Shown piece by piece: positions 9,843 to 24,280 of a stretch of DNA of 64,000 bases. Source of the stretch: Bacteroidia bacterium (GTDB lineage: Bacteria; Bacteroidota; Bacteroidia; B-17B0; Aurantibacillaceae); contig JALHPG010000001.1 in NCBI GenBank assembly GCA_022842625.1, positions 62,001 through 126,000 of the forward strand, given 5' to 3'. The notes beneath the pieces are model-generated. The model did not search any database and was not told where the DNA came from. It saw only the letters and a list, made by a program, of their open reading frames with translations. A program made the translations under genes and the position numbers. How positions within the stretch are numbered: position 1 is the first letter of the stretch; each line of letters starts with the position of its first letter.

Positions 9843-11678
9843 ATGGCAAAACGCAGAGGGGCTGGCCCAACAAATAGTGATACAGACGAATTACCAAAGG
9901 CAAAGCTTAGCCTGGCAAACTTCAAAAAATCGTTGCGTTTATTCGGCTATTTAGGAAAACACAAATGGAAGTTCATTCTTGGAATGATCTTTTTAGTTGG
10001 TAGTGCGGGTGTTGGTTTGGTGTTTCCATTAAAATCGGGCGAAATGTTTGGGTATTTAGGGGAAAGTGTAAAAGGCCCCGATCAGGTACGTACCGAATTA
10101 ATGAGCATTGGTTTAATTTTGTTAGTTATTTTATTGGCGCAAGCGGTCTTTTCATTCGGACGAGTTTATTTATTTGCGCAGGTTACCGAGAATATTTTAA
10201 AAGAGGTAAGAAAAGATACGTTTAAACGTTTGATACAAATGCCGATGAGTTTTTTCTCAAAAAACCAAGTGGCAGAATTAAGTAGCAGAATGGCAACGGA
10301 TATTAGCGTAATTTCTGATGCCTTCACCATAAATATTGCAGAATTTATTCGACAAAGTATTGTTGGTGTAGGCGGGTTGATCTTATTGATCTATACTACC
10401 GAATGGACGATCGCCAAATGGTTCTTAATTATTATTCCGCCGTTAACTGTTGCTGCAATATTATTTTCAAAAAGGATCAGAAAATTTTCAAAATCATATC
10501 AAGAAAAAATTGCCGAATCCAACGTAATTGTTGGCGAGGCTTTAACCGGTATTACTAATGTAAAAACCTTTACCAACGAAAATTACGAAGTTGCGAAATA
10601 TGAAAAAATTTCTGACAGCATCCGTGAGTTTGGCTTAAAGTATGGGATCTTTAGGGGCTTGTTCTTTTCTTTCGTAATGGTATTTGTATTCGGTTCTATC
10701 TTTTTTATTTTATGGCAAATGCTGTTTGCTTTAAAAGTTGAACATACAATTACGCCGCAGGCCTTTGGAACATTTATGATGTTATCGTTATTTGTTGCCG
10801 GTTCGTTAGGCGGTTTACCTGAGCAGATCGCCTCTATACAACGAGCGCTTGGCGCAACAGATAGAGTATTTGAATTAATTGATGGGGAGGTAGAAAATAT
10901 TGAGTTTTTAAAAGAAAACACACCTGCTAAACAAACAAAAGGCGAAATTGAATTTAGTTCTGTATCTTTTAATTATCCGTCTCGACCTGATTTTAAGGTA
11001 CTACAAGATATTTCATTTAAAGCAGAAGCTGGTCAAACTGTAGCTCTTGTAGGCTCAAGTGGTTCCGGCAAAACTACTATTGCTTCCTTAATTCTTCGGT
11101 TTTATGATCCAATAAACGGCAGCATTTTAATTGACGGCTTGGATTCAAGATCTATTTCATTAACAGAATTAAGGAAACAAATTGCCTTAGTGCCGCAAGA
11201 TGTGATCTTATTTGCAGGAACAATAAGAGATAATATAGCCTATGGCAAACCAAACGCAACAGACCTTGAAGTTGAAGAGGCTGCTCGCAAAGCAAACGCT
11301 TTAGATTTTATTATATCGTTTCCTGATCAATTTAAAACATTAGTTGGCGAAAGAGGGATACAACTTTCGGGAGGGCAAAGACAACGTATTGCTATTGCAA
11401 GAGCTGTTTTAAAAAACCCTAGTATTTTAATTTTAGATGAAGCAACCAGTAGTTTAGATAGTGAAAGCGAACATTTGGTGCAGGAAGCGTTAGATAAATT
11501 AATGGTGGGGCGCACAAGTATTGTTATTGCGCATAGATTATCAACTATTAGAAATGCCGATAAAATTGTTGTACTTCAAAATGGATTGGTGCAAGAAGTT
11601 GGCCCACATCAAGAACTAATTTTAAACGAAAGTGGCTTGTATTACAAACTAAACAAAATGCAGTTTGAATTAAGTTAG
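9843..11678 (+). CDS. ABC exporter, fused permease/ATPase (MsbA-like)
   Basis: A 611-residue half-transporter that would act as a homodimer in the inner membrane. After a charged N-terminus, about six transmembrane helices (residues 40-335) form the exporter domain. The ATPase domain follows with Walker A GSSGSGKT, signature LSGGQRQRIAIARA, Walker B ILILDEATSSLDSES and switch His in IAHRLSTI. The family includes MsbA (lipid A flippase) and multidrug exporters; a Bacteroidota cell needs MsbA, and lipid A genes lie elsewhere in the window, but substrate is not proven. It converges on the HAD phosphatase, overlapping its 3' end by 9 bases. Confidence 0.9.
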   Translation: MAKRRGAGPTNSDTDELPKAKLSLANFKKSLRLFGYLGKHKWKFILGMIFLVGSAGVGLVFPLKSGEMFGYLGESVKGPDQVRTELMSIGLILLVILLAQAVFSFGRVYLFAQVTENILKEVRKDTFKRLIQMPMSFFSKNQVAELSSRMATDISVISDAFTINIAEFIRQSIVGVGGLILLIYTTEWTIAKWFLIIIPPLTVAAILFSKRIRKFSKSYQEKIAESNVIVGEALTGITNVKTFTNENYEVAKYEKISDSIREFGLKYGIFRGLFFSFVMVFVFGSIFFILWQMLFALKVEHTITPQAFGTFMMLSLFVAGSLGGLPEQIASIQRALGATDRVFELIDGEVENIEFLKENTPAKQTKGEIEFSSVSFNYPSRPDFKVLQDISFKAEAGQTVALVGSSGSGKTTIASLILRFYDPINGSILIDGLDSRSISLTELRKQIALVPQDVILFAGTIRDNIAYGKPNATDLEVEEAARKANALDFIISFPDQFKTLVGERGIQLSGGQRQRIAIARAVLKNPSILILDEATSSLDSESEHLVQEALDKLMVGRTSIVIAHRLSTIRNADKIVVLQNGLVQEVGPHQELILNESGLYYKLNKMQFELS

Positions 11679-12377
11679 ATCAACTGATTCGATCTTTTCG
11701 TTTACAACTGTAAAGAATTTTGTTTTTACCAATTTTCTTTTTTCGATATAGTTCTTATAATCTAACGTTGAATCTTTTCGGTTAGTGATAACTTCATTAA
11801 AATTTTCGTTTAAAGCAATTAATAATTCAGAAGCCTCGCGAACCGCGAACTGCCCGCCTTGCGAAGCTGTTAAATAATCAACTAAATTATTTTTTATACA
11901 GTAATTAGCAAATAAAGGGTTTGCTTTTTGATTCACTAAAATTCTTACACCACACACCTCAGCCATTGAAAGGTCTAATACGTCGTCAAAAAAATAAGCC
12001 ACTTCGCTTGGTTTAATATTTTCTTTTTCACAAATAAAATTTAAAGCATTAATTTTTGTGGCAACTTTAAAAAACGAATAGTCAAAACATTCTCGTTTAC
12101 AAAAGTAAAATGCAGTTTCATTTTTTTCGCCACTAATAACAGCTGCTAATGGCAGTTGTTTGTTTTTTATAAAATGAGAATACCGTAATAAATTAGTGCC
12201 CATGCTATCTACTTCACTAAAATTACTGCTACCGTTAGCGCTTTTTTCTCCGTTATTAAAAACACCATCCCAATCAAAAATATAAGCCTTTATGTGACTT
12301 AATTTATCTTTGACCTCATTAATAGGTGTAATAAACTTTCCTCCAATATACGAGTATGAATTTTCGATCTCTTGCAT
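11670..12377 (-). CDS. KdsC-like HAD phosphatase
   Basis: A 235-residue HAD-superfamily enzyme of the KdsC (Kdo-8-phosphate phosphatase) type, with an N-terminal extension of about 30 residues. Motif I is IFDWDGVFNNG (nucleophile and acid Asp); motif II lies in AAVISGEKN; the conserved Lys is in ATKINAL; motif III is AYFFDDVLDLSMAEVCG. The C-terminal GGQFAVREASELLI matches the KdsC AVRE tail that completes the neighbouring active site of the tetramer. Likely substrates are Kdo-8-P or another nonulosonate phosphate. It is 37 bases downstream of the transaldolase-CBS gene, and a terminator-like hairpin with its T-run directly abuts its start codon, so expression probably depends on read-through. 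Confidence 0.72.
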   Translation of the reverse strand: MQEIENSYSYIGGKFITPINEVKDKLSHIKAYIFDWDGVFNNGEKSANGSSNFSEVDSMGTNLLRYSHFIKNKQLPLAAVISGEKNETAFYFCKRECFDYSFFKVATKINALNFICEKENIKPSEVAYFFDDVLDLSMAEVCGVRILVNQKANPLFANYCIKNNLVDYLTASQGGQFAVREASELLIALNENFNEVITNRKDSTLDYKNYIEKRKLVKTKFFTVVNEKIESVDLT

Positions 12378-12402
12378 AAAAAAAGCCCTATTTAAAGGGC
12401 TT
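12378..12402 (-). terminator. Terminator or attenuator hairpin between transaldolase-CBS and KdsC-like genes
   Basis: AAGCCCT (12383-12389) and AGGGCTT (12396-12402) pair around 6 bases. On the minus strand a run of seven T follows and ends directly at the ATG of the KdsC-like gene (12377). It is both an intrinsic terminator for the upstream gene and a structure in the ribosome-binding region of the downstream gene. Confidence 0.7.
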
Positions 12403-12414
12403 ATTAATTTTGAA

Positions 12415-13425
12415 TTATGATTTCAAGTCTTGAATATCTAGCATCCCAACAGGCTTGCCATTATCTGTAACTACGATTGTATCAACATTTGTCTTTTTAA
12501 ATAAATTATTGGCCTCATTTAATAAAACATTCCCATCAATTGAAATTGGCTCACGATATTCAAGATCGCTTAACTTTTTAGTTAAAATATCTCTTCCCTT
12601 TTCGCCTAATAATTTACGTAAGCTACCATCGGTAAACACACCTTTAATGCTGCCATCTTTTTTAACAACAGTTATGGCGCCAAAATTATATTCAGTTAAT
12701 TTAATGATCGCATCGGTAATGTTAGTATCTTCAGAAACAACAGGATTAACACCATTAATAGCTTCTTTTACTTTAACCATCATCAAACGCGTATCCATAA
12801 TAAATTGGTCGGTTCCAACGGTTGTGAAATTATTTTCGGTTAATTGTTTTAATATTTTTAACGGAACAGTAATGGTGTGAACTCCAATATTTATTGCATT
12901 TCTTACATGCTCAACAGTTCTTACTGAGGAGAACATGATCTTAGTATCGTATCCGTAAATTTCAACTGCATCAACACACTGTTCTACTAAAGCTAATGCA
13001 TCGTGACCTTGATCCTGCAAACGTCCTACTAAAGGACAAACATACGTTGCGCCGGCTTGCATAGCCATATAAGCTTGTTGCAAGGTGTAAACCAAATGCA
13101 CGTTAACCAATAAACCTTTATCGCGTAACATTTTGCAAGCGCGAACGCCCTCTAATGAAACCGGTATTTTAAAAACGGTTTTTGTGGGATCTAAACCTAA
13201 TTTTATTTGGCGCTCAGCTTCAGCTAAAACTTCTTCTGCTGTGTTGCCCAATGCTTCGATTTGAAGGATAGGAACTATCTTGCTGAGTTTTACAATTGTT
13301 CCGTCAATATCTGTAATTCCCTCCTTTTGCATAAAAGTAGGGGTAGTTGTTAAACCGTTCAAAAAGCCTAATTTAAAACCTTCTTCAATTTCTTTTAAGT
13401 TGGCTGAATCTAAGTATAATTCCAT
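12415..13425 (-). CDS. Transaldolase/fructose-6-phosphate aldolase-like enzyme fused to two CBS domains
   Basis: A 336-residue two-module protein. Residues 1-215 are a TalC/FSA-type transaldolase: MELYLDSANLKEIEEG start, Schiff-base Lys K86 in VFKIPVSLEG, AGATYVCPLVGRLQDQG, and HTITVPLKIL. The usual TTNPS loop reads TTTPT, so the conserved Asn is replaced. Residues 222-336 are a CBS pair (PVVSEDTNITDAI..., GVFTDGSLRKLLGEKG, PVGMLDIQDLKS) that closely resembles the CBS pair of KdsD/KpsF arabinose-5-phosphate isomerase. The next gene is KdsC-like. I infer a sugar-phosphate enzyme controlled by a nucleotide or CMP-sugar through the CBS pair. It could simply be a regulated transaldolase of the pentose pathway. 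Confidence 0.85.
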   Translation of the reverse strand: MELYLDSANLKEIEEGFKLGFLNGLTTTPTFMQKEGITDIDGTIVKLSKIVPILQIEALGNTAEEVLAEAERQIKLGLDPTKTVFKIPVSLEGVRACKMLRDKGLLVNVHLVYTLQQAYMAMQAGATYVCPLVGRLQDQGHDALALVEQCVDAVEIYGYDTKIMFSSVRTVEHVRNAINIGVHTITVPLKILKQLTENNFTTVGTDQFIMDTRLMMVKVKEAINGVNPVVSEDTNITDAIIKLTEYNFGAITVVKKDGSIKGVFTDGSLRKLLGEKGRDILTKKLSDLEYREPISIDGNVLLNEANNLFKKTNVDTIVVTDNGKPVGMLDIQDLKS

Positions 13426-13550: not shown

Positions 13551-14327
13551 CTATTTTACTACTAACTTTTTAGTTACAGCTCCATTTGCCATTTTTATTT
13601 GAGCAAAATAAACACCGGAACTTAAATCATTAACACTTATTTCTAATTTATTTTTACCTTCTGATATAACCACAGGTTGTTCAGAAACAATAGCGCCAAG
13701 AGCATTATAAACAATCACTTTTGCATCCATAGCCTTTTGTGAATTAACTTTTAAAACAGTTACATCAGTCGCAGGGTTTGGAAAAATCTCGAAAGATGAT
13801 AATGCATTATTGTTTAATTCTGATACTCCGGCAGGGGCATTGTATTTAATGCTGATTTGAACAGAATCGCTAACGTTAGCGGTATTAAAAACTGTATACT
13901 TAATAAAGCTATAACCCACAGCTGAAGCCTCATCTAAGTCTGCTGTTAACATATTATAAGTCCCTTGAAGCTCTGATGCACTTTGACCAGAAGTTAAGGT
14001 TAAGGATTGAAGCGATAGTGTAACATTACTACCATAACAATTTCCGCCAAAACAAAAATAAGCATCAGCTATTGTGCTTGTTGATGCAACAGCGTTAAGG
14101 ACAATATCATAACGCTTAACATGATATGTCTTAGTTGCCGGGCTGGTGTTTTTTACATCAAAGTCAATCTTTGTTGGCGAGGCTGCAGCTGTTGTTGCTG
14201 AAACAATACCGTTTGGCGAAATAACGATCGGCGAAGCGGTATTGGTAACATTTGTAATCAATATGCTTGATTGCGAAAAACCTTTTAAACAAAAAAAGGA
14301 AGCTATAATTAATAAAGATTTTTTCAT
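13551..14327 (-). CDS. Small T9SS cargo protein with YFCFGxNC motif (paralogue A)
   Basis: A 258-residue secreted protein. Signal peptide MKKSLLIIASFFCLKGFSQ; a beta-rich domain of about 145 residues; a type A T9SS sorting domain from about residue 180 (FEIFPNPATDVTVLKV to the final KLVVK). The domain carries YFCFGGNCY at residues 90-98 (C92, C97) and KYTVFNTANVSDSV, both shared with the 271-residue protein at 16635-17450. The domain is not one I can name. It would cross the outer membrane through the T9SS and be attached to the surface or released. The gene begins 15 bases after the terminator hairpin of the Omp28-like gene upstream, leaving little room for its own promoter. Confidence 0.85.
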   Translation of the reverse strand: MKKSLLIIASFFCLKGFSQSSILITNVTNTASPIVISPNGIVSATTAAASPTKIDFDVKNTSPATKTYHVKRYDIVLNAVASTSTIADAYFCFGGNCYGSNVTLSLQSLTLTSGQSASELQGTYNMLTADLDEASAVGYSFIKYTVFNTANVSDSVQISIKYNAPAGVSELNNNALSSFEIFPNPATDVTVLKVNSQKAMDAKVIVYNALGAIVSEQPVVISEGKNKLEISVNDLSSGVYFAQIKMANGAVTKKLVVK

Positions 14328-14342
14328 TTTTTAAAATTTAAA

Positions 14343-14371
14343 AGCCTTACCAAATTTTATTTGGTAAGGCT
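14343..14371 (-). terminator. Terminator/attenuator between the 670-aa Omp28-like gene and paralogue A
   Basis: AGCCTTACCAAAT and ATTTGGTAAGGCT (13 bases, perfect) flank a 3-base loop, 17 bases after the stop of the Omp28-like gene. Fifteen bases separate it from the next start codon. Confidence 0.8.
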
Positions 14372-14387
14372 CTAATTAATACAAATA

Positions 14388-16400
14388 TTATTTAGTAACA
14401 GTTAATTTTTTTACCATTGAACCATTATTTGACTCAACCATAACATTATATAAACCGCTAGCAAAATCTTTAGCGTCTATTTGAAGCGTGTTAACACCTA
14501 CAGTTAATTCAACTTGTTTGCTATAAACAATTTGACCTAATGTATTCATTACGATAACGTTTGCGTTACCGCCAACAACTGCATCAATTTTTACGTTAGT
14601 TTCTCCTCTTGTAGGATTAGGGTAAACATCAAAACTTACATTGTTGTTAGTGTTTGCTTTAACTGAAGTAGCAACAGCTTGAGATAAATTGATATTATCT
14701 ACATACATGTTATTTCCATAATCAGATGTAGCAACAAACTTAACTAAAACTTCAGGTGAATTTGAATAAGAAGTTAATGCAACGTTTACTGTTTTCCATT
14801 GTGAAGCATTTGGAACAAATGCAGCAGTAACAGGACTAGCATTAGTAGCTAATACTGTACCAGCTTGACTAAATACAGTAGACCAAGTAGTACCACAATT
14901 TGTAGAAACTTTTACTTCTAACTTATCATTTTCGTTATTTGGCACAGCAGTATAAAATGCATAAGCAACGTCAAAAGATAATACAGGAGAAGTAGTTCCT
15001 GTTAAGCTTGTAGGCGGTAAATATAAATCATCAGCATCTCCTGTTACAGCGTTGTTGTAGAAATCATATTTTGAAGCACCTGTGTTAGTACCATAAGCCC
15101 CTACAGCACCGTTTCTGCTCCAAGTTGGACCAGCATTTGAGTTAACCATAGCCCAATTAGTTGGAGGGAAAGTTACAACAGTAAATGGTTCTACAACCGG
15201 ATTTGCAAAGTAAACAGGAGAGCAAACAAAACTAGTAGATTTCTTATTGTTTGTTAAATTATTTTCGCCACCACTTACTGCAATAATGTTATAAGAATAA
15301 GTGTGAGCTCCTGCAGTAGTAGTTAAAAGGTTAGTAGGAATAGTTGTAGAAGCACCAGGAGCTAAATTACCTGTCCAAACAACGTTTGCGCCAATAACTG
15401 CATCTAATGCCGGTTGTACAGTAAACGCAGTAATTGCATTTGAACCGTGATTTTTTACTGTTACAGTTGGAATTAAAGTGGTAGAACAAACTACTGCTGA
15501 AATATTTGCAGAAATAGCTTTAGCATCATTAGCTAAACCAACAGTGTTCGATAAAGCAGCTTGTTGTACTCTTTTGTTTCCGTCATCTTGAATAAAACCA
15601 ATAAAAGCTACTTCAGATTTATCTCTGATGTATGAAGGTAAAACACAGTTGATAGTGAATGTTTGATTTTGACCGGTAGTCCACGCAGATGCCATAGCCG
15701 TACCCATGCTTGTAGTTACAGTTCCAGCTTGTGTAGTTGGAAATGATTTTACAGCCACGTCTTCAAAATCCTTCTCACCGTTTGTACCCGGAGCAGTAGC
15801 AAAATTAATATGTCTTTCGATCATTACTAAACGGTAAACTAAAGCACCAGTAGATGTATAGTTTGCGCTAGCAGTAATGTTTACAGTTAATGTTACTGAA
15901 GAAAAAGTAGGATCCCATGCACGGTTCATTGTAATAGAGAATGGTGATGTGAATGAAGATGCCGCATTAAATAATGTAGCATTACCATTTCCTGCATGGT
16001 TACTTGAAGCTCCACCACCTGGCACAGCCCATAAGTGACCGCCATCAATTCTACCTTGAGGCGCAGAGTTGATACCTCCTGTTGGAGTGTCTGTAGAAGT
16101 CCAAGCTGACATATAACCGTATCCAGCAGGAGACGGAGAATAACGCCACTTGATCTCTGATTCGTTAGTTTTCCATAACGACCAAGTAGTGGTTGGCGCA
16201 GAAGGAATTGGCACTTGCCATTTAATAGCAACAACTTTTGTTGAGTTTGCAGCGATGTTAGCATTTAAGCCCGGATTTGTTGCTGCACAAGGAGGACAAT
16301 TTTCTCCTGTAAACTCTTCGAATAATGATAAACGTGGAGTCTGCGCTACAGCAGTAATTCCAGCGATCACTAAACCTAAGGTTAATAGATTTTTTTTCAT
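14388..16400 (-). CDS. Omp28-related thioredoxin-like T9SS cargo protein (long form 1)
   Basis: A 670-residue secreted protein. Signal peptide MKKNLLTLGLVIAGITAVAQ, then an Omp28-like domain beginning LFEEFTGENCPPCAATNPG, where C35 and C38 form a thioredoxin-type CPPC. The middle part has CARDB-like (VTVKNHGSNAITAF) and cleaved-adhesin-like (FPPTNWAMVNSN...VLSFDVAYAFY) beta domains. A type A T9SS sorting domain closes it (FDVYPNPTRGETNVKI, final KKLTVTK). It is a clear paralogue of 18841-20760: same order of domains and the same TPRLSLFEEFTGE start. A consensus promoter lies 40 bases upstream. A disulfide-exchange or adhesion role at the surface is inferred only. Confidence 0.88.
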   Translation of the reverse strand: MKKNLLTLGLVIAGITAVAQTPRLSLFEEFTGENCPPCAATNPGLNANIAANSTKVVAIKWQVPIPSAPTTTWSLWKTNESEIKWRYSPSPAGYGYMSAWTSTDTPTGGINSAPQGRIDGGHLWAVPGGGASSNHAGNGNATLFNAASSFTSPFSITMNRAWDPTFSSVTLTVNITASANYTSTGALVYRLVMIERHINFATAPGTNGEKDFEDVAVKSFPTTQAGTVTTSMGTAMASAWTTGQNQTFTINCVLPSYIRDKSEVAFIGFIQDDGNKRVQQAALSNTVGLANDAKAISANISAVVCSTTLIPTVTVKNHGSNAITAFTVQPALDAVIGANVVWTGNLAPGASTTIPTNLLTTTAGAHTYSYNIIAVSGGENNLTNNKKSTSFVCSPVYFANPVVEPFTVVTFPPTNWAMVNSNAGPTWSRNGAVGAYGTNTGASKYDFYNNAVTGDADDLYLPPTSLTGTTSPVLSFDVAYAFYTAVPNNENDKLEVKVSTNCGTTWSTVFSQAGTVLATNASPVTAAFVPNASQWKTVNVALTSYSNSPEVLVKFVATSDYGNNMYVDNINLSQAVATSVKANTNNNVSFDVYPNPTRGETNVKIDAVVGGNANVIVMNTLGQIVYSKQVELTVGVNTLQIDAKDFASGLYNVMVESNNGSMVKKLTVTK

Positions 16401-16439
16401 GTGATTTGTTTTTTAAATTGATTTAGTTTTTTAGTTAAG

Positions 16440-16470
16440 CAAATATAATCAACTGAAGTCAATTATTCAA
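16440..16470 (-). promoter_or_regulatory. Promoter of the Omp28-like gene at 14388-16400
   Basis: Minus strand: TTG (16470-16468), 20-base spacer, TATATTTG (16447-16440). Exact match to the Bacteroidota consensus, with a leader of about 32 bases. Confidence 0.7.
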
Positions 16471-16582
16471 CTAGAATTTTGTTAAATAGCAATTTGAAAT
16501 TTTGGTTTAAAACAGACTGAAAATGAGGTGTTTGATAAGCAAGTAGGAGTTGAAAAATATTAATCTAAAATATCTAAATAAA

Positions 16583-16612
16583 AAAGACTGCTTTAATAAA
16601 AAAACAGTCTTT
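16583..16612 (-). terminator. Terminator after the 271-aa T9SS cargo gene
   Basis: AAAGACTG and CAGTCTTT pair around a 14-base A/T-rich loop, followed by an A/T run, 23 bases past the stop at 16635. Confidence 0.7.
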
Positions 16613-16634
16613 CTAAATATTAATATAAAGGAGG

Positions 16635-17450
16635 TTATTTTGAAATGATCAATCTTTTGTTTAAAGTAGTTTTTTCAGACTCGATCGATAGATTATAAAA
16701 TCCTGAGTTTAAATTATTGCAATTTAATTCAAGTGCGTTTGATCCCATATTTAGTTTGTAATAATTACTATCAATCAATTGGCCAATAGTATTTGTGATA
16801 TTAATTTTAACGCTAGATGTACCCGCCGAGTTAACAAAAACAGTTACCTTGTCTTTAGCCGGGTTAGGAAATAAGGTAACCGAAAAGTCTGTATTACCAC
16901 CTTTATCGTTTAATCCTAATGGCTGATTATATCCTATAAAAAAAGCCAAGCTATCATTTGGGTTTGCTACATTAAATAATTTATACTTCACAACATAGTT
17001 TCCTGTTACAGGCCCCTCCTCAAGATCAACAGAAAATGGCTGGTTATTGTCTACGGTATTATCGCCCATTGGAAATACCGAATTGGTTTGTCCTGAAGCC
17101 AGTAATATCGTATAGTCAGCAGCGCCAGGAGTGTTTACCGCAGGGGTAAAACAATTAAAACCAAAACAAAAATAAGTTGTTGGAGCATTTGCAACTATGC
17201 TTAAGTCTAATATTGGTGACTGAGAAACAATAGAGCGTGTTACATTAAATGTTTGAGTTACTGCTGCATTATTTTTTATTTTGAACTTTGTTACCTTTAA
17301 TGCGTTTGCCGAAGTTGATTCATAAACATAATTACCATTAGAAACTGTTGCTGTTGGCACAAAATTTACATCCGTTTTATAAAGAGAAAAACTCTGAGCA
17401 ACGCCTGCAAAAGAAACACCCATTACTAGGAAAGAAATTATTTTTTTCAT
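16635..17450 (-). CDS. Small T9SS cargo protein with YFCFGxNC motif (paralogue B)
   Basis: A 271-residue secreted protein: signal peptide MKKIISFLVMGVSFAGVAQ, a beta-rich domain of about 160 residues, and a type A sorting domain (VTLFPNPAKDKVTVFV to KRLIISK). It shares YFCFGFNCF (C95, C100), LASGQTNSVFP and KYKLFNVANPNDSLAFFIGYN with paralogue A, so the two are products of duplication. The function is unknown. Like paralogue A it starts just after the terminator hairpin of an Omp28-like gene (17529-18701), with about 30 bases between hairpin and ATG. This repeated arrangement suggests attenuated co-expression with the CxxC protein upstream. Confidence 0.85.
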   Translation of the reverse strand: MKKIISFLVMGVSFAGVAQSFSLYKTDVNFVPTATVSNGNYVYESTSANALKVTKFKIKNNAAVTQTFNVTRSIVSQSPILDLSIVANAPTTYFCFGFNCFTPAVNTPGAADYTILLASGQTNSVFPMGDNTVDNNQPFSVDLEEGPVTGNYVVKYKLFNVANPNDSLAFFIGYNQPLGLNDKGGNTDFSVTLFPNPAKDKVTVFVNSAGTSSVKINITNTIGQLIDSNYYKLNMGSNALELNCNNLNSGFYNLSIESEKTTLNKRLIISK

Positions 17451-17480
17451 TTTAAATATTTTATAATTATCATAAAAAAT

Positions 17481-17508
17481 AAAAGCCGACCATAAAAGGC
17501 CAGCTTTT
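17481..17508 (-). terminator. Terminator/attenuator between the 390-aa Omp28-like gene and paralogue B
   Basis: On the minus strand AAAAGCTGGCC pairs with GGTCGGCTTTT if two G-U wobbles are allowed; the plus-strand transcript would have mismatches instead, so the hairpin is directional. It lies 20 bases past the stop of the Omp28-like gene. Confidence 0.7.
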
Positions 17509-17528
17509 ATATTTAATTTATTAAACGA

Positions 17529-18701
17529 TTACTTAGAGATAGTTAGCTTTTGTGTTTTTTCTTTATTACCAACCATTACTTTTACAAAATAAACTCCACT
17601 TTGTAGATCGGAAATATTTAAATCAATAGAATGAATTCCTTTTTCTAAATCTGAAGAGGTAGTGTAAACTTCAGCCCCTAACATATTATACATTTTCACA
17701 ACAACATTCTCCTGCTTGCTAATTAATAAAGCAAGAGTGGCTTTATCTGCCGCAGGATTTGGAAATACAGTTGCAGAATATTCTTCAGATGGGTCATATT
17801 TTTGAACTCCGGTAGGCATACCGCTAACAATAGTAATCGGGCCGGTGCAACCGGATACAATATTTTGCTGTGTTTCAGTTACAAAGGCAACTAATTTCAA
17901 TTTTGAAAGCAATACATTTGTTTTTATTGCGCCTCCACTAACTGTTAAAGGATATTGAGAAGCAATAGTATACGTGTAGGTCTTTGCAAACGTAAATCCT
18001 GTTGTTGTTGTTGGTATAACATCACCCCATTGGCCTGTAATCATATGACGTAATAGTTTATTGTGTTGGTATTGTTGACCAACCGGATTAGATGCAAACC
18101 ACATGGCTGGGTAATAGGTTGCGCCTGATGTTTGAGGGCCAAGCACACTATCTTGCAATAAAGCAATGTTTAAATAATTAGTCGGATTAATTCCATTACC
18201 TGTATAATAAACCTCTGCTTGAACTGTTAAAATATTTGTTACTGCATCAATTGTAGCTTGTAAAGCCACATTTAAATTTGACGGAAGAGCAATTATTGAA
18301 GCGCTAGAACTAGCCCACTTTGATCTGCTTTGAGCTGTTCCTGGAGTAGTTGTGTTTTGACTATTTGCAGGGATTAAGGTTCTATTTACAGTACCTGCAG
18401 GGTAACCCGTTAAGTTTGTTTGAGCAGCTATTGCTGAACCAAAAGCAGTTCTAAAATCAGGTGCACCTGAAGCGGGATTGGCGTATGACCCAGTGTGGAT
18501 ATTTATCGCATAGGCATTACCCGGATAAAATGCTGTTATTTGATCTGCTTTTAAGTGGCCGTCCGGACAAAATTGGCAAGTAATTCCTGTAAATTCCTCT
18601 AAAATTATTTTTCTGTTTTGCGGTGTTGTGCTAACAGGTAATTGAGCAAACGCTGTAAATACAGTTGATGCTGCAAGAATACTTAGTAATTGTTTCTTCA
18701 T
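17529..18701 (-). CDS. Omp28-related thioredoxin-like T9SS cargo protein (short form)
   Basis: A 390-residue secreted protein. Signal peptide MKKQLLSILAASTVFTAFAQ, then ILEEFTGITCQFCPDGH, in which C42 and C45 form the thioredoxin-like CxxC of the Omp28 family. The rest of the domain reads as a thioredoxin-fold-plus-beta region (ALLQDSVLGPQTSGATYY, HNKLLRHMITGQWG), typical of Omp28-like proteins. A type A sorting domain ends it (ATVFPNPAADKATLAL to KLTISK). A candidate promoter lies in the 139-base gap upstream; a terminator and then paralogue B follow. Confidence 0.88.
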   Translation of the reverse strand: MKKQLLSILAASTVFTAFAQLPVSTTPQNRKIILEEFTGITCQFCPDGHLKADQITAFYPGNAYAINIHTGSYANPASGAPDFRTAFGSAIAAQTNLTGYPAGTVNRTLIPANSQNTTTPGTAQSRSKWASSSASIIALPSNLNVALQATIDAVTNILTVQAEVYYTGNGINPTNYLNIALLQDSVLGPQTSGATYYPAMWFASNPVGQQYQHNKLLRHMITGQWGDVIPTTTTGFTFAKTYTYTIASQYPLTVSGGAIKTNVLLSKLKLVAFVTETQQNIVSGCTGPITIVSGMPTGVQKYDPSEEYSATVFPNPAADKATLALLISKQENVVVKMYNMLGAEVYTTSSDLEKGIHSIDLNISDLQSGVYFVKVMVGNKEKTQKLTISK

Positions 18702-18840: not shown

Positions 18841-20760
18841 CTATTTTGAGATAACTAATTTTTTTGTTGTTGAATATTTACCATTTTCAATTATTATAAA
18901 ATAAATTCCACTAGCAAGATCTTTTGTATCCATTTTAATAGTGTTTGTTCCCGAATTTAATACTACTTGTTTTGTATATACAATTTCGCCTATGGCATTA
19001 AACATCTTAATATTCGAACTACTAGAATTCTCTGATCTGATCTTTAAAACAGTTTCATTAATTGCAGGATTTGGGAAAATTGTAATATCCGAATTGTTGA
19101 AATTATTTTTTAAAACACCAAGAGTACTTGGTTGAGATAAATTTACATTATCAATAAACATATTGTTTCCCTTATCATTTGTTGCTCTAAATTTTACAAG
19201 AACATTTGGACTCGCAAACCCTGTAAGCGCAACTGTTTCAGTGATCCAATCTTGTGGCAAAGTAGGAAGGAAGGCATTACTAACTGCCGCGCTTGTTGCT
19301 AAAAATTGGCCTGCTTTACTATAAACATTTGACCAGGTTACTCCGCAATCAACAGAAACAAGAATATCCAATTGATCATTCTCATTTAGTTTTTGAGCTT
19401 TAGCAAGATCAAAAGATAAACTTGGAGTTGCAGATCCGCTTAAATCCATTGGAGGTAAGTATAATTCATCCACATCACCAGATACAGGGTTTGTATAAAA
19501 ATCAAATTTAATAGCGCCGTAATCAGCAAAATTGCCAAAACTCCCAACATTAGTAACTCTGCTCCATGATGGCCCATTATTTGAATTAATACCTGTCCAG
19601 TTTAAAGGAGGAAAGGCAGACATAGCAAAATCTTCAGCAACAGGAGTGGCTTGATAATTCGTAGCTACTAGATATTTTACCCTGTTTGAAACGGTAAATA
19701 AATTGTATGGGTTATCCATTACCAAAGTATACGAATATGTATGAACGCCGGATGTTGTTGGTGTTGATGTAGTATTTAATAGAAGTACTGTAGAGGCTCC
19801 AATTGCAAGATTGCCCGACCAAGGTGTAGTAGTTCCGGCTATTCCATCAACAAAAGAGGTAACTGTAAAAGAAGTTATTGGATTTGCACCATTATTATTA
19901 ATAGTAATTTGAGGAGAAATTGTAGAGGTACACGTTGCATCCACTTTTGTATCAAGCATTGTTAAAGCAGTTGTTGGAATTGCAACCTTATCGGCTCTAA
20001 AGGCTTGCAATACTTTTTTATTTGCAGCATCTTGAATAAAACCTACAAAAGCGATTTCTTCTTTTTTTCTGGTGTATGATGGTATTGGGCAATTAAGTGT
20101 AAATGTATGAACTTGTCCCACAGTCCATGCAGTTGGCAATGCGTAACCACTTTGAATGGATGGAAAAGATTTAATAGCAACGTCTTCAAAATTCTTTTCG
20201 CCATTCGTACCCGGCTGAACGCTAAATTGTATCAAACGTTCAATCATAACCGTTCTAAATTGTAAGGCATTTGTGGCAGTATAATTTGCACTAGCTTGAA
20301 CCGTAATAGTTAAATTAACCGAACTACAACCTGCGTCCCAAGCACGAACCATATTAATAGAAAAAGGTGAGGTTAGAGCTTGTGCGGTAGATATTAAACC
20401 CGGAGTACAGTTACCGGCATGATTACTGGCGCCACCAAAAACCGTTAGGCTTTGACCATCCATACGCCCTTGTGGAGCCGAATTCACAGCATAATAATTC
20501 ATTCGCGCGTTAATCTCAACAGCATTTGTTTGATATAAAGACCAAGTATTTGTTGGCGCACTAGGAATTGCCACTTGCCACTTAATTGCAACAACCTTTG
20601 AAGCGTTAGCTGTTAATGTTGCATTTAAGCCCGGGTTGGTGCTTGCGCAAGGAGGACAGGTTTCGCCTGTAAACTCTTCAAACAAAGACAAACGAGGAGT
20701 TTGGCAAAATGCAGTAAAACCTGCAAACATTAGTGCTACTGAAAGTAAATTTTTTTTCAT
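18841..20760 (-). CDS. Omp28-related thioredoxin-like T9SS cargo protein (long form 2)
   Basis: A 639-residue secreted protein when started at the ATG at 20760, which gives MKKNLLSVALMFAGFTAFCQ as signal peptide; the open frame to 20802 adds 14 residues that would bury it. The Omp28-like start LFEEFTGETCPPC (C35, C38) and the whole domain order match the 670-residue protein at 14388-16400, including a FPPLNWTGINSN cleaved-adhesin-like region and a type A sorting domain (ITIFPNPAINETVLKI, final KKLVISK). It is the first of the five tandem cargo genes in transcription order. Minus-strand TATATTTG at 20798-20791 may be its -7 box, without a clear TTG. No small Cys-x4-Cys partner follows. Confidence 0.87.
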   Translation of the reverse strand: MKKNLLSVALMFAGFTAFCQTPRLSLFEEFTGETCPPCASTNPGLNATLTANASKVVAIKWQVAIPSAPTNTWSLYQTNAVEINARMNYYAVNSAPQGRMDGQSLTVFGGASNHAGNCTPGLISTAQALTSPFSINMVRAWDAGCSSVNLTITVQASANYTATNALQFRTVMIERLIQFSVQPGTNGEKNFEDVAIKSFPSIQSGYALPTAWTVGQVHTFTLNCPIPSYTRKKEEIAFVGFIQDAANKKVLQAFRADKVAIPTTALTMLDTKVDATCTSTISPQITINNNGANPITSFTVTSFVDGIAGTTTPWSGNLAIGASTVLLLNTTSTPTTSGVHTYSYTLVMDNPYNLFTVSNRVKYLVATNYQATPVAEDFAMSAFPPLNWTGINSNNGPSWSRVTNVGSFGNFADYGAIKFDFYTNPVSGDVDELYLPPMDLSGSATPSLSFDLAKAQKLNENDQLDILVSVDCGVTWSNVYSKAGQFLATSAAVSNAFLPTLPQDWITETVALTGFASPNVLVKFRATNDKGNNMFIDNVNLSQPSTLGVLKNNFNNSDITIFPNPAINETVLKIRSENSSSSNIKMFNAIGEIVYTKQVVLNSGTNTIKMDTKDLASGIYFIIIENGKYSTTKKLVISK

Positions 20761-20893: not shown

Positions 20894-23800
20894 ATGATCC
20901 TAAACAAAAAGCTAGAGGGGATTTTTAATTCTAAAATACAAGCCATAAACCTTAACCAAAACTACTGGCTACAAGGTTTAAACGGATCCGCTTTGTCTTT
21001 TTTTATTCAATCGCTTTATTTAGCGCATAAAAAAAATTGCGTAATTATTGCCTCAGATAAAGAAAAAGCGGCGTATTTGCTAAATGATCTTGAAACATTA
21101 CTTCCGCAAGACAAGATCTTATTTTTTCCTGAATCATACCGGCAACCTTACCAAATAGAAAAAACAACCAACGCCAATATTCAAGAAAGGGCCGAGGTGT
21201 TAAGTCTTTTATCCAAAGAAAATTTTACAGGTATCGTTATTACCTACCCGCAGGCCCTTGCCGAAAAAGTTACTCTCAAACAAAAGCTTCAGCAAAACAC
21301 TCTTCAAATAAAAAAAGGCGAAAAACTTTCTATCGATTTTATTTCTGAATTTTTACTGTCTTACGATTTTGAACATGTAGATTTTGTTTTTGAGCCGGGG
21401 CAATTTAGTATCAGAGGTGGGATAATTGATATTTTCTCGTTTGCAAATGAATTTCCTTATCGCATAGAATTATTTGGAAATGAAGTAGAAGCCATTAAAA
21501 CATTTGATCCGGCAGACCAATTATCAAATGCGAAATTTGATTTTGTAACGATCATCCCAAACATTAACTCTAAGATCTTTACCGAAGAAAAAGTATTACT
21601 GCTTAATTATTTTGGCAACCATAGTTCGTTTTTGTTTTTTGAAGACGCACAATATTCATTAGATGTTTTTGACAAAAAATTTGACGCCGCTACCAAGGCC
21701 TACCAGCAATACTCCGGAGAGGTAAAACAAATTGAACCCGAAAAATTATATTCCAAATCGGAGGACCTAAAAGAACAACTGAAAAAATTTACATCTTTCG
21801 AATTTGGGATCAGGTCAATTTTATCTTCTGAAAGTATAAAATTCGATCAAAAACCACAGCCTTCTTTCAACAAAAATTTCGACCTGTTAATTGCTAATTT
21901 AAAAGAAAACAAGGCAAAAGGTTTCCAAAATTATTTCTTAACCGATAATGTTAAACAAGCCGAAAGATTAATAAGTATTTTTAACGACCTCCTTGCAAAA
22001 GAGCATCGCGCTTACGATACAATAATAGATTATTTACAACTCGATATTCATGAAGGATTTGTTGACGACGAATTTAAAATTGCCATCTATACCGACCACC
22101 AGATTTTTGAACGCTACCATCGCTTTAAATTAAAAGAATTAAAACATAAAAGCGCCGAAGCGTTTACTATTAAAGAATTGCTCACATTAAATCCGGGAGA
22201 TTATGTGACCCACATCGATCACGGTATTGGCCGATTTGCAGGGTTACAAAAAATAAATACGAATGGCAAAGAACAAGAAAGTGTAAAGCTTCTATTTAGA
22301 GATAACGATGTACTTTATGTTAGCATTCATAGTTTACACCGCATAAGTAAATTTAGCGGCAAAGAAGGTAACGTTCCGCGCATTGACAAATTAGGCAGTA
22401 CAAATTGGGCAACCCTAAAATCAAAAACCAAACGTAATGTAAAAGAACTTGCTTACGACCTAATTAAGTTGTATGCCGAAAGAAAATCCAGACCGGGTCA
22501 TGCCTTCCCTAAAGATAATTATCTGCAGCACGAACTTGAAGCGTCATTTATCTATGAAGATACGCCCGATCAAATTAAAGTTACAAAAGATGTAAAACGG
22601 GATATGGAAAAACCACATCCGATGGATAGATTAGTTTGCGGGGATGTTGGTTTTGGAAAAACAGAAATTGCAGTAAGAGCTGCTTTTAAAGCCGTTTGCG
22701 ACAGTAAGCAGGTTGCAGTGCTTGTGCCAACAACCATTTTAGCGTATCAACATTATAAAACATTTAAAGAGCGTTTAAAAGATCTGCCTTGCAACGTCGA
22801 TTATATTAATCGCTTTAGATCAGCTAAGCAAGTAAAAGAAACATTAAGGAATTTAGCCGATGGCAAATTAGACATTATTATAGGTACACATAAATTAGTA
22901 GGCAAGGATGTAAAGTTTAAAGACCTTGGTTTATTAATAATTGATGAAGAACAAAAGTTTGGAGTAAGCATAAAAGACAAATTAAAAACCTTTAAAAGTA
23001 ATATTGATACATTAACTTTAACCGCAACCCCTATTCCGAGAACCTTGCAATTTAGTCTGATGGGCGCTCGCGATCTGTCAGTAATATCTACTCCCCCACC
23101 CAATCGTTACCCGGTACAAACAGAATTGCATGCGTTTGACGAAGAACTAATTCGCGATGCCGTAAGCTATGAATTAAAACGTGGCGGTCAGGTATTTTTT
23201 GTACACAATAAAGTACAAAATATAATGGACATTGCCGGTATCATTCAACGCTTAGTGCCTGATGCAAGGATTGCAATTGGCCATGGCCAAATGGACGGCG
23301 ACAAACTGGAAGACGTTATGTTGGGTTTTATGGAAGGCGAATACGATGTTTTAGTTGCAACAACAATTATTGAAAGCGGCTTGGACATCAGTAACGCCAA
23401 TACTATTATTATTAATGATGCGCAAAATTTTGGCTTAAGTGATCTGCATCAAATGCGCGGTCGTGTTGGTAGAAGCAACAAAAAAGCGTTCTGTTACCTA
23501 TTAGCACCATCACAAATCATGCTTACAAGCGAAGCGCAAAAACGATTAAAGGCAATTGTAGATTTTAGTGATCTTGGAAGTGGTTTTCAAATTGCCATGC
23601 GCGATCTGGATATTCGAGGCGCAGGAAATTTATTAGGCGGAGAGCAAAGTGGTTTTATAAACGATATGGGCTTTGATACCTATATGAAAATTTTAAATGA
23701 GGCTATTGAAGAATTAAAAGAAGAAGATTGGTATAAAGATGTGGTGGGCGAGGAACACGAATCAGATAAATCTATTTTCTCTCGACAGTTCGTAAAAGAA

Positions 23801-24280
23801 ACTGTAATAGATACCGACCTTCCGTTACTTATACCAGACACTTATGTTAGCAGCTTAACCGAAAGATTATTGTTGTATAGAGAGCTTGATAACATTACAA
23901 AAGAAGAAGATCTTCAGAAATTTGAACTAAATTTAAAAGATAGGTTTGGTCCTTTGCCAATAGAAGTAACCGAGCTTATTAATGTTGTTCGCATGCGATG
24001 GAAGGCGATGAAATTAGGTTTTGAAAAACTAACATTAAAAAATAAAAAATTATTGGCCTACTTTTTAAATAAGCAAGAAAGTGATTACTTTTCTAGTCCA
24101 ATGTTTCAAGCCGCCTTGCTTTTTGCGCAAAAATATCCTAACCTTTGTACTTTAAAAGAACAAAATAAAAAATTATATTTAACCGTTGAAGATGTGGCCT
24201 CAGTTAAGCGATCCGCAGAAGTATTAACACAAATAGAGAACTTAATTCAATTTCCGGAGGTATTACCAAGTGAAAGCTAG
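20894..24280 (+). CDS. mfd: Transcription-repair coupling factor Mfd
   Basis: A 1128-residue ATP-driven translocase that removes stalled RNA polymerase at DNA lesions and recruits UvrA. The UvrB-like N-terminal region (residues 1-330) includes FEPGQFSIRGGIIDIF. The CarD-like RNA-polymerase-interaction domain begins near residue 434 (GDYVTHIDHGIGRFAGLQKI). The RecG-like motor follows: GDVGFGKTEIAVRAAF (Walker A), LLIIDEEQKFG, TLTATPIPRTLQFSLMGARDLS, and QMRGRVGRSNKKAFCYLL. The C-terminal TRCF domain is present. Length is normal. Its last 11 bases overlap the histidine-kinase start, so mfd appears to head the kinase/BtuFCD gene string. Confidence 0.97.
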   Translation: MILNKKLEGIFNSKIQAINLNQNYWLQGLNGSALSFFIQSLYLAHKKNCVIIASDKEKAAYLLNDLETLLPQDKILFFPESYRQPYQIEKTTNANIQERAEVLSLLSKENFTGIVITYPQALAEKVTLKQKLQQNTLQIKKGEKLSIDFISEFLLSYDFEHVDFVFEPGQFSIRGGIIDIFSFANEFPYRIELFGNEVEAIKTFDPADQLSNAKFDFVTIIPNINSKIFTEEKVLLLNYFGNHSSFLFFEDAQYSLDVFDKKFDAATKAYQQYSGEVKQIEPEKLYSKSEDLKEQLKKFTSFEFGIRSILSSESIKFDQKPQPSFNKNFDLLIANLKENKAKGFQNYFLTDNVKQAERLISIFNDLLAKEHRAYDTIIDYLQLDIHEGFVDDEFKIAIYTDHQIFERYHRFKLKELKHKSAEAFTIKELLTLNPGDYVTHIDHGIGRFAGLQKINTNGKEQESVKLLFRDNDVLYVSIHSLHRISKFSGKEGNVPRIDKLGSTNWATLKSKTKRNVKELAYDLIKLYAERKSRPGHAFPKDNYLQHELEASFIYEDTPDQIKVTKDVKRDMEKPHPMDRLVCGDVGFGKTEIAVRAAFKAVCDSKQVAVLVPTTILAYQHYKTFKERLKDLPCNVDYINRFRSAKQVKETLRNLADGKLDIIIGTHKLVGKDVKFKDLGLLIIDEEQKFGVSIKDKLKTFKSNIDTLTLTATPIPRTLQFSLMGARDLSVISTPPPNRYPVQTELHAFDEELIRDAVSYELKRGGQVFFVHNKVQNIMDIAGIIQRLVPDARIAIGHGQMDGDKLEDVMLGFMEGEYDVLVATTIIESGLDISNANTIIINDAQNFGLSDLHQMRGRVGRSNKKAFCYLLAPSQIMLTSEAQKRLKAIVDFSDLGSGFQIAMRDLDIRGAGNLLGGEQSGFINDMGFDTYMKILNEAIEELKEEDWYKDVVGEEHESDKSIFSRQFVKETVIDTDLPLLIPDTYVSSLTERLLLYRELDNITKEEDLQKFELNLKDRFGPLPIEVTELINVVRMRWKAMKLGFEKLTLKNKKLLAYFLNKQESDYFSSPMFQAALLFAQKYPNLCTLKEQNKKLYLTVEDVASVKRSAEVLTQIENLIQFPEVLPSES
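24255..24272 (+). promoter_or_regulatory. Shine-Dalgarno sequence that selects the GTG start of the histidine kinase
   Basis: CGGAGG at 24255-24260 lies 9 bases before GTG (24270-24272), inside the end of mfd. A strong Shine-Dalgarno is unusual in this phylum, where most genes lack one, and supports the non-ATG start. Confidence 0.6.

Follow-up and report, generated by a model that had tools for sequence, protein, structure and literature searches.

The window analysed here, a 64,000-nucleotide stretch of Bacteroidia DNA, carries a cluster of five genes for cargo of the type IX secretion system (T9SS), in the order A, B, s1, A' and s2. The cluster is flanked at its A end by mfd (20894-24280, plus strand) and at its s2 end by a gene for a transaldolase-CBS fusion (TAL-CBS, 12415-13425). 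All five are read from the minus strand: A (18841..20760) encodes a 639-aa Omp28/HBP35-like protein with a CPPC motif at 20658-20647, B (17529..18701) a 390-aa Omp28-family protein with CQFC at 18578-18567, s1 (16635..17450) a 271-aa protein assigned to the PorA family with C-x4-C codons at 17168-17151, A' (14388..16400) a 670-aa Omp28/HBP35-like protein with CPPC at 16298-16287, and s2 (13551..14327) a 258-aa protein also assigned to the PorA family with C-x4-C codons at 14054-14037. Type A T9SS sorting tails score above cut-off in every one of them. An earlier, sequence-only reading had named four of these ORFs (B, s1, A' and s2), and we find all four where it placed them, together with the CQFC motif of B, the CPPC motif of A' and the motifs YFCFGFNCF and YFCFGGNCY in the small proteins; gene A, just upstream of B, was absent from its list.

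A' and A share 50% identity along their whole length, whereas the similarity of A' to B is limited to the signal/CxxC segment and the C-terminal tail, so that, as judged from sequence, A and A' are tandem paralogues and B, an Omp28-family member, is related to them more distantly. The small proteins s1 and s2 are 29% identical and belong to separate old clades. The picture of two duplicated units, each a CxxC gene with its small gene, thus gives way, and with it the idea that a B-s unit was recently duplicated to give the A'-s unit. No further copy of the small family beyond s1 and s2 was found in the same genome. B is shorter here than the proteins of ~600-630 aa encoded at the same position in other species (L044, L046 and L050), and therefore seems to have lost its middle domains in the present lineage. 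Beyond the cluster, TAL-CBS combines a fructose-6-phosphate aldolase-like (TalC-type) domain with two CBS domains and is followed by a gene for a KdsC-like HAD phosphatase (11670-12377), a TAL-HAD pair that is conserved in the family.

Pairing of the genes in relatives

We collected 80 loci around matches to the small family from genomes that belong to the same GTDB family as the window. Several species of the genus repeat the order mfd, A, B, s1, A', s2, TAL, HAD. Among the family's 100 small genes, 85 directly adjoin an Omp28-like gene recognised by profile, and in 79 of these cases a CxxC can be recognised. The surroundings of these pairs differ widely among the family loci, and this survival of the association through many different gene neighbourhoods supports the functional pair that had been proposed from the sequence. 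The order within the pair, which had been called conserved, varies: 41 small genes have an Omp28-like gene only upstream, 23 have one only downstream and 20 are flanked by Omp28-like genes, and class-wide the paired genes are often divergent. Starting reciprocally from Omp28-like proteins in named genomes, a small gene lies within ~4 kb at 38 of 75 loci, including one in the cultured Taibaiella chishuiensis. The other 15 of the 100 family small genes have no Omp28-like neighbour, and more such genes occur class-wide; the sequence-only reading had staked the pair on small genes neither standing apart from Omp28-like genes nor having promoters of their own, and both departures are found in part, as solitary small genes exist and some small genes carry promoter-like boxes. 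At one locus (L093:6238-9674), four tandem PorA-family genes stand beside a fructose-bisphosphatase gene, again with no Omp28-like neighbour.

A quick tree of 110 small proteins, in which many forks remain open, places s1 and s2 in two separate supported clades: most genes of the s1 clade lie downstream of B-type partners, and the s2 clade is made up largely of genes downstream of A-type partners. A sister genus (L050, L059) has a two-unit layout with both of its small proteins in the B clade, from which it appears that the layout probably arose twice, in parallel.

Junction hairpins and expression of the small genes

Terminator-like hairpins separate each CxxC gene from its small gene, as had been noted from the sequence, and begin 14-18 nt past the stop codon. 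The hairpin between B and s1 (17479..17510, minus strand) ends 28 nt before the ATG of s1, and that between A' and s2 (14341..14373, minus strand) ends 13 nt before the ATG of s2, with no promoter box on either side; a third, spotted by eye, lies 3' of s1 (16580..16614, minus strand; AAAGACTG...CAGTCTTTTTT). A' itself has a probable promoter at 16440..16470 on the minus strand, in which TTG (16470-16468) is followed after 20 nt by TATATTTG (16447-16440), an arrangement that we take to be the Bacteroidota -33/-7 consensus. Among relatives, a hairpin is present in 46 of 53 gaps in which a small gene follows an Omp28-like gene, compared with 5 of 54 other co-directional gaps. Across 12 members of the genus, seven of the nine stem pairs show compensated double changes, and the hairpin therefore appears to be kept by selection. 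A terminator-like hairpin also occurs in the window at 12378-12414 (GCCCTTTAAATAGGGCTTTTTTT), between the TAL-CBS and HAD genes and abutting the next ATG. Of 19 relatives, 17 share this layout of a terminator against a start between TAL and HAD; since it is found at such an unrelated junction, it is not a signature of the Omp28-like/small pair.

The junctions fall into two classes that suggest different routes of expression. In the short class (n=22, including that of s2 in the window), the hairpin ends no more than 20 nt from the start codon, and the Bacteroidota -7 element, the TAnnTTTG box, is absent from all 22, both 3' of the hairpin and in the 70 nt on its 5' side, in a scan that covered this promoter type only and that other promoter types would escape. 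A sigma-70 promoter scan is of no use here, since Bacteroidota use other promoters. As the hairpin leaves a promoter no room and no -7 box lies on either side of it, read-through is likely the simplest route of expression for short-class small genes, s2 among them. The A'-s2 junction thus shows the pattern expected of an attenuated operon, a conserved terminator with no TAnnTTTG promoter for the second gene, and s2 would depend on transcripts from A' that in part read through the hairpin, which would hold s2 below A'. In the long class (n=24, including that of s1, which itself has no exact TAnnTTTG box), the box stands directly 3' of the hairpin in 8 of 24 junctions, and the small genes so equipped probably start their own transcripts. 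Attenuation of the second gene, as first proposed, is hence plausible for s2 and does not extend to the pairs in general.

The pairs could also be chance neighbours, that is, unrelated tandem T9SS cargo genes with promoters of their own, between which the hairpins act as ordinary terminators. The simple tandem paralogy of A and A' and the promoter box in a third of the longer junctions both fit such an account; it is already weakened in that the pairing recurs among unrelated neighbours and with either gene first, and it sits poorly with the 22 short junctions devoid of the box and with the co-clustering of DUF6029 and TlpA genes described below. We consider it very improbable.

PorA-like small proteins and their thioredoxin-like partners

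The comparisons that follow, from profiles and a structural model, identify s1 and s2 as PorA-family secreted surface proteins. No Pfam or NCBIfam model names or covers their N-terminal domain, and narrower profiles of the small family match neither PDB sequences, PorA included, nor proteins in named genomes. The class-wide profile A5, built from 70 small proteins that come mostly from other families of the class, matches PorA (6kjk_A) at E=3e-6 with the next match at 0.13, and its alignment sets the PorA segment LCFGQCMLP onto the FC-x3/4-CY motif of the small proteins. An AlphaFold2 model of s2 (pLDDT 92.8) has as its best solved match the N-terminal domain of PorA (6kjk; Foldseek 2e-6), with Z 14.3 and rmsd 2.3 over 124 of 134 residues, the next structure reaching Z 10.3. 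The small proteins score 53.0 and 54.5 bits against Por_Secre_tail (cut-off 27), and share with PorA a size of ~250 aa and an architecture of a single N-terminal domain followed by a type A T9SS tail.

PorA of Porphyromonas gingivalis (PGN_0123) is a 246-residue T9SS protein that acts upstream of PorXY-SigP and that BLAST, in the hands of its discoverers, found in Porphyromonas only (PMC7712824); the translocon Sov (SprA) has two main partners, PorA and PorV (PMC8754138). It resembles s1 and s2 (271 and 258 aa) in fold, profile match, tail and the aligned place of its cysteine motif (C-x3-C against C-x4-C), and differs from them in that they are only ~16% identical to it, occur as two copies and lie beside an Omp28-like thioredoxin gene. 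With the small family present in 173 of 395 sampled Bacteroidia genomes, a PorA family hitherto reported from one genus is widespread in the class. The motif cysteine pair is present in 94-95 of 96 family members, about 98%, in nearly all class-wide members and in PorA, and no other cysteine is well conserved in small-family proteins. In one PorA-family protein (L108_0, L108:4118-4861) the two motif cysteines have been lost together, a pattern to be expected of residues that work as a pair.

Among the partners, B matches Pfam Omp28 (PF11551) at 69.6 bits, above the cut-off of 34.9, and remains below the cut-off of the Omp28 lipoprotein subfamily NF033782 (86.4 against 150 bits); the window proteins differ from that family's lipoproteins in having no lipoprotein signal. 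A and A' have no Pfam Omp28 match listed at E up to 1 and are therefore called Omp28/HBP35-like. A model of the N-terminal 283 residues of A' (pLDDT 80), with the CPPC at residues 35-38, best matches HBP35 (5y1a; E=2.9e-8, Z 20.9 over 234 residues), while the Omp28 structure 2r2c fits its second half. The CxxC and its EE[FY]TG context are conserved among Omp28-like partners. HBP35 (PGN_0659) is a thioredoxin that P. gingivalis displays through the T9SS and that reduces insulin in a CxxC-dependent manner (PMC2907840). A and A' share with it a thioredoxin-like CxxC domain, a following Ig-like domain and a T9SS tail, and differ in their 12% identity, their roughly twofold length and a choice-of-anchor J type region. 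By its modelled fold and CxxC, A' is a putative surface thioredoxin of the HBP35 type, with predicted thiol reductase activity.

A candidate thiol partnership at the cell surface

Class-wide, we collected 60 small-family loci, which contain a DUF6029 outer-membrane barrel in 33 cases, a TlpA/ResA-type thioredoxin in 32, an Omp28 lipoprotein in 31 and an Omp28-like T9SS protein in 28, typically in the order lipoprotein-DUF6029-TlpA-Omp28-like and pointing away from the small gene. DUF6029 occurs in 167 of 172 SprA-positive genomes with the small family and in 107 of 211 without it, an association (Fisher 2e-27, on hand-compiled counts and ignoring phylogeny) that holds among SprA-positive genomes and for which the presence of the T9SS is thus unlikely to be the sole cause, phylogeny again being ignored. 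The small gene lies within 13 kb of sprA in at least 29 genomes (29 of the 50 for which both positions are listed), drawn from 12 families, and SprA was confirmed by Pfam in two collected loci; this linkage matches the known Sov-PorV-PorA complex (PMC8754138). At L171, L177, L196, L214 and other loci, the cluster adjacent to the PorA-like gene is often followed by cobB, maeB, ruvA and sprA. In the window's own genome, TlpA-DUF6029 lies at one contig end and DUF6029-Omp28 lipoprotein at another, and another member of the family (G063) keeps the whole cluster. The same small family is set class-wide in a DUF6029-TlpA-Omp28 lipoprotein cluster near sprA, whereas the window has only the Omp28-like/PorA-like part, next to mfd, and the mfd-TAL position looks derived.

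We propose, with a probability of roughly 45%, that the locus encodes two surface pairs, each of a thioredoxin-like protein (B or A') and a PorA-family protein (s1 or s2), joined in a thiol partnership. Such a partnership is well motivated by the conserved cysteine pairs, the thioredoxin-type domain of the partner as seen in sequence and model, and the presence of TlpA in the class-wide cluster; the most likely form of it is that the C-x3/4-C pair of the PorA-like protein, with its Ig/FimH-lectin-like domain, is the redox partner or substrate of the thioredoxin-like protein. The latter would reduce or isomerise the PorA-family disulfide at the surface, and the small protein, by analogy with P. 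gingivalis PorA, may work at the SprA-PorV translocon and pass a signal on to PorXY-SigP, so that the pair could report or set the surface redox state for the secretion system. The repeated placement of PorA-family genes beside those of thioredoxin-like surface proteins suggests a thiol-based switch, operated by these bacteria on the outer surface close to the protein exporter. Against this count the solitary small genes, 15 in the family and many in the class, and the fact that in P. gingivalis the locus numbers of porA (PGN_0123) and hbp35 (PGN_0659) place the two genes apart; the two-cysteine loop may also be a purely structural disulfide.

This last point leads to the main rival, in which PorA-like modules resembling the FimH lectin, with a structural disulfide, and substrate-recruiting Omp28-like proteins form a binding or scaffold pair with no redox role, whose shared surface site would explain the adjacency. 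The N-terminal domain of PorA does resemble the FimH lectin domain (PMC7712824), and the FimH and FmlH lectins are among the fold matches of the s2 model. The Omp28-related T9SS protein 00502 of Paraprevotella clara, which works with a second T9SS protein as the Omp28-like members of our pairs may do, recruits trypsin together with that protein, 00509 (PMC9477747), and the long Omp28-like proteins bear additional Ig/choice-of-anchor J domains. The strict conservation of the partner's CxxC and the class-wide co-clustering of the TlpA thioredoxin with the CxGGxC barrel point instead to thiol chemistry, and we hold the scaffold pair to be a serious but somewhat unlikely alternative. Distinctly less probable is a general foldase role, in which the Omp28/HBP35-like proteins and TlpA would make or mend the disulfides of a wide range of T9SS cargoes, the PorA-like protein being one of their clients. 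In line with such a role, HBP35 complements an E. coli dsbA mutant (PMC2907840), and the Omp28-like protein, TlpA and the Omp28 lipoprotein could pass for a general thiol set; the repeated adjacency, however, is specific to PorA-like genes as opposed to other cargo genes.

Returning to the thiol partnership, we offer a more elaborate version that is speculative and, on present evidence, unlikely to be correct in full: a relay from periplasmic TlpA through the DUF6029 barrel with its CxGGxC and the Omp28 lipoprotein to the HBP35/Omp28-like protein would set the oxidation of the SprA-bound PorA-family protein and thereby control the T9SS via PorXY-SigP, the window then holding a relocated and duplicated output end of the relay. 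These considerations bear on the route by which PorXY-SigP is signalled to turn on type IX secretion, and the widespread PorA-like proteins, their near-invariant cysteine pair, the frequent proximity of sprA and the surface thioredoxins make it a question testable in harmless species whether PorA is a surface redox switch.

The class-wide loci also give the DUF6029 family a first context. In the open-access literature we found a single paper that mentions DUF6029, which deals with polysaccharide porins, no description of the DUF6029-TlpA-Omp28 cluster, and nothing that links Omp28, PorA-like proteins and sprA. Thirty-four of 36 DUF6029 sequences end in CxGGxC close to RAGIFCVGGVCRNVPASNG, the other two being cut before the C-terminus. 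In examples such as L171:1808-3454 and L196:9302-10930, the DUF6029 motif reads CVGGVCR, a C-x4-C whose spacing resembles that of FCFGGNCY in the small proteins.
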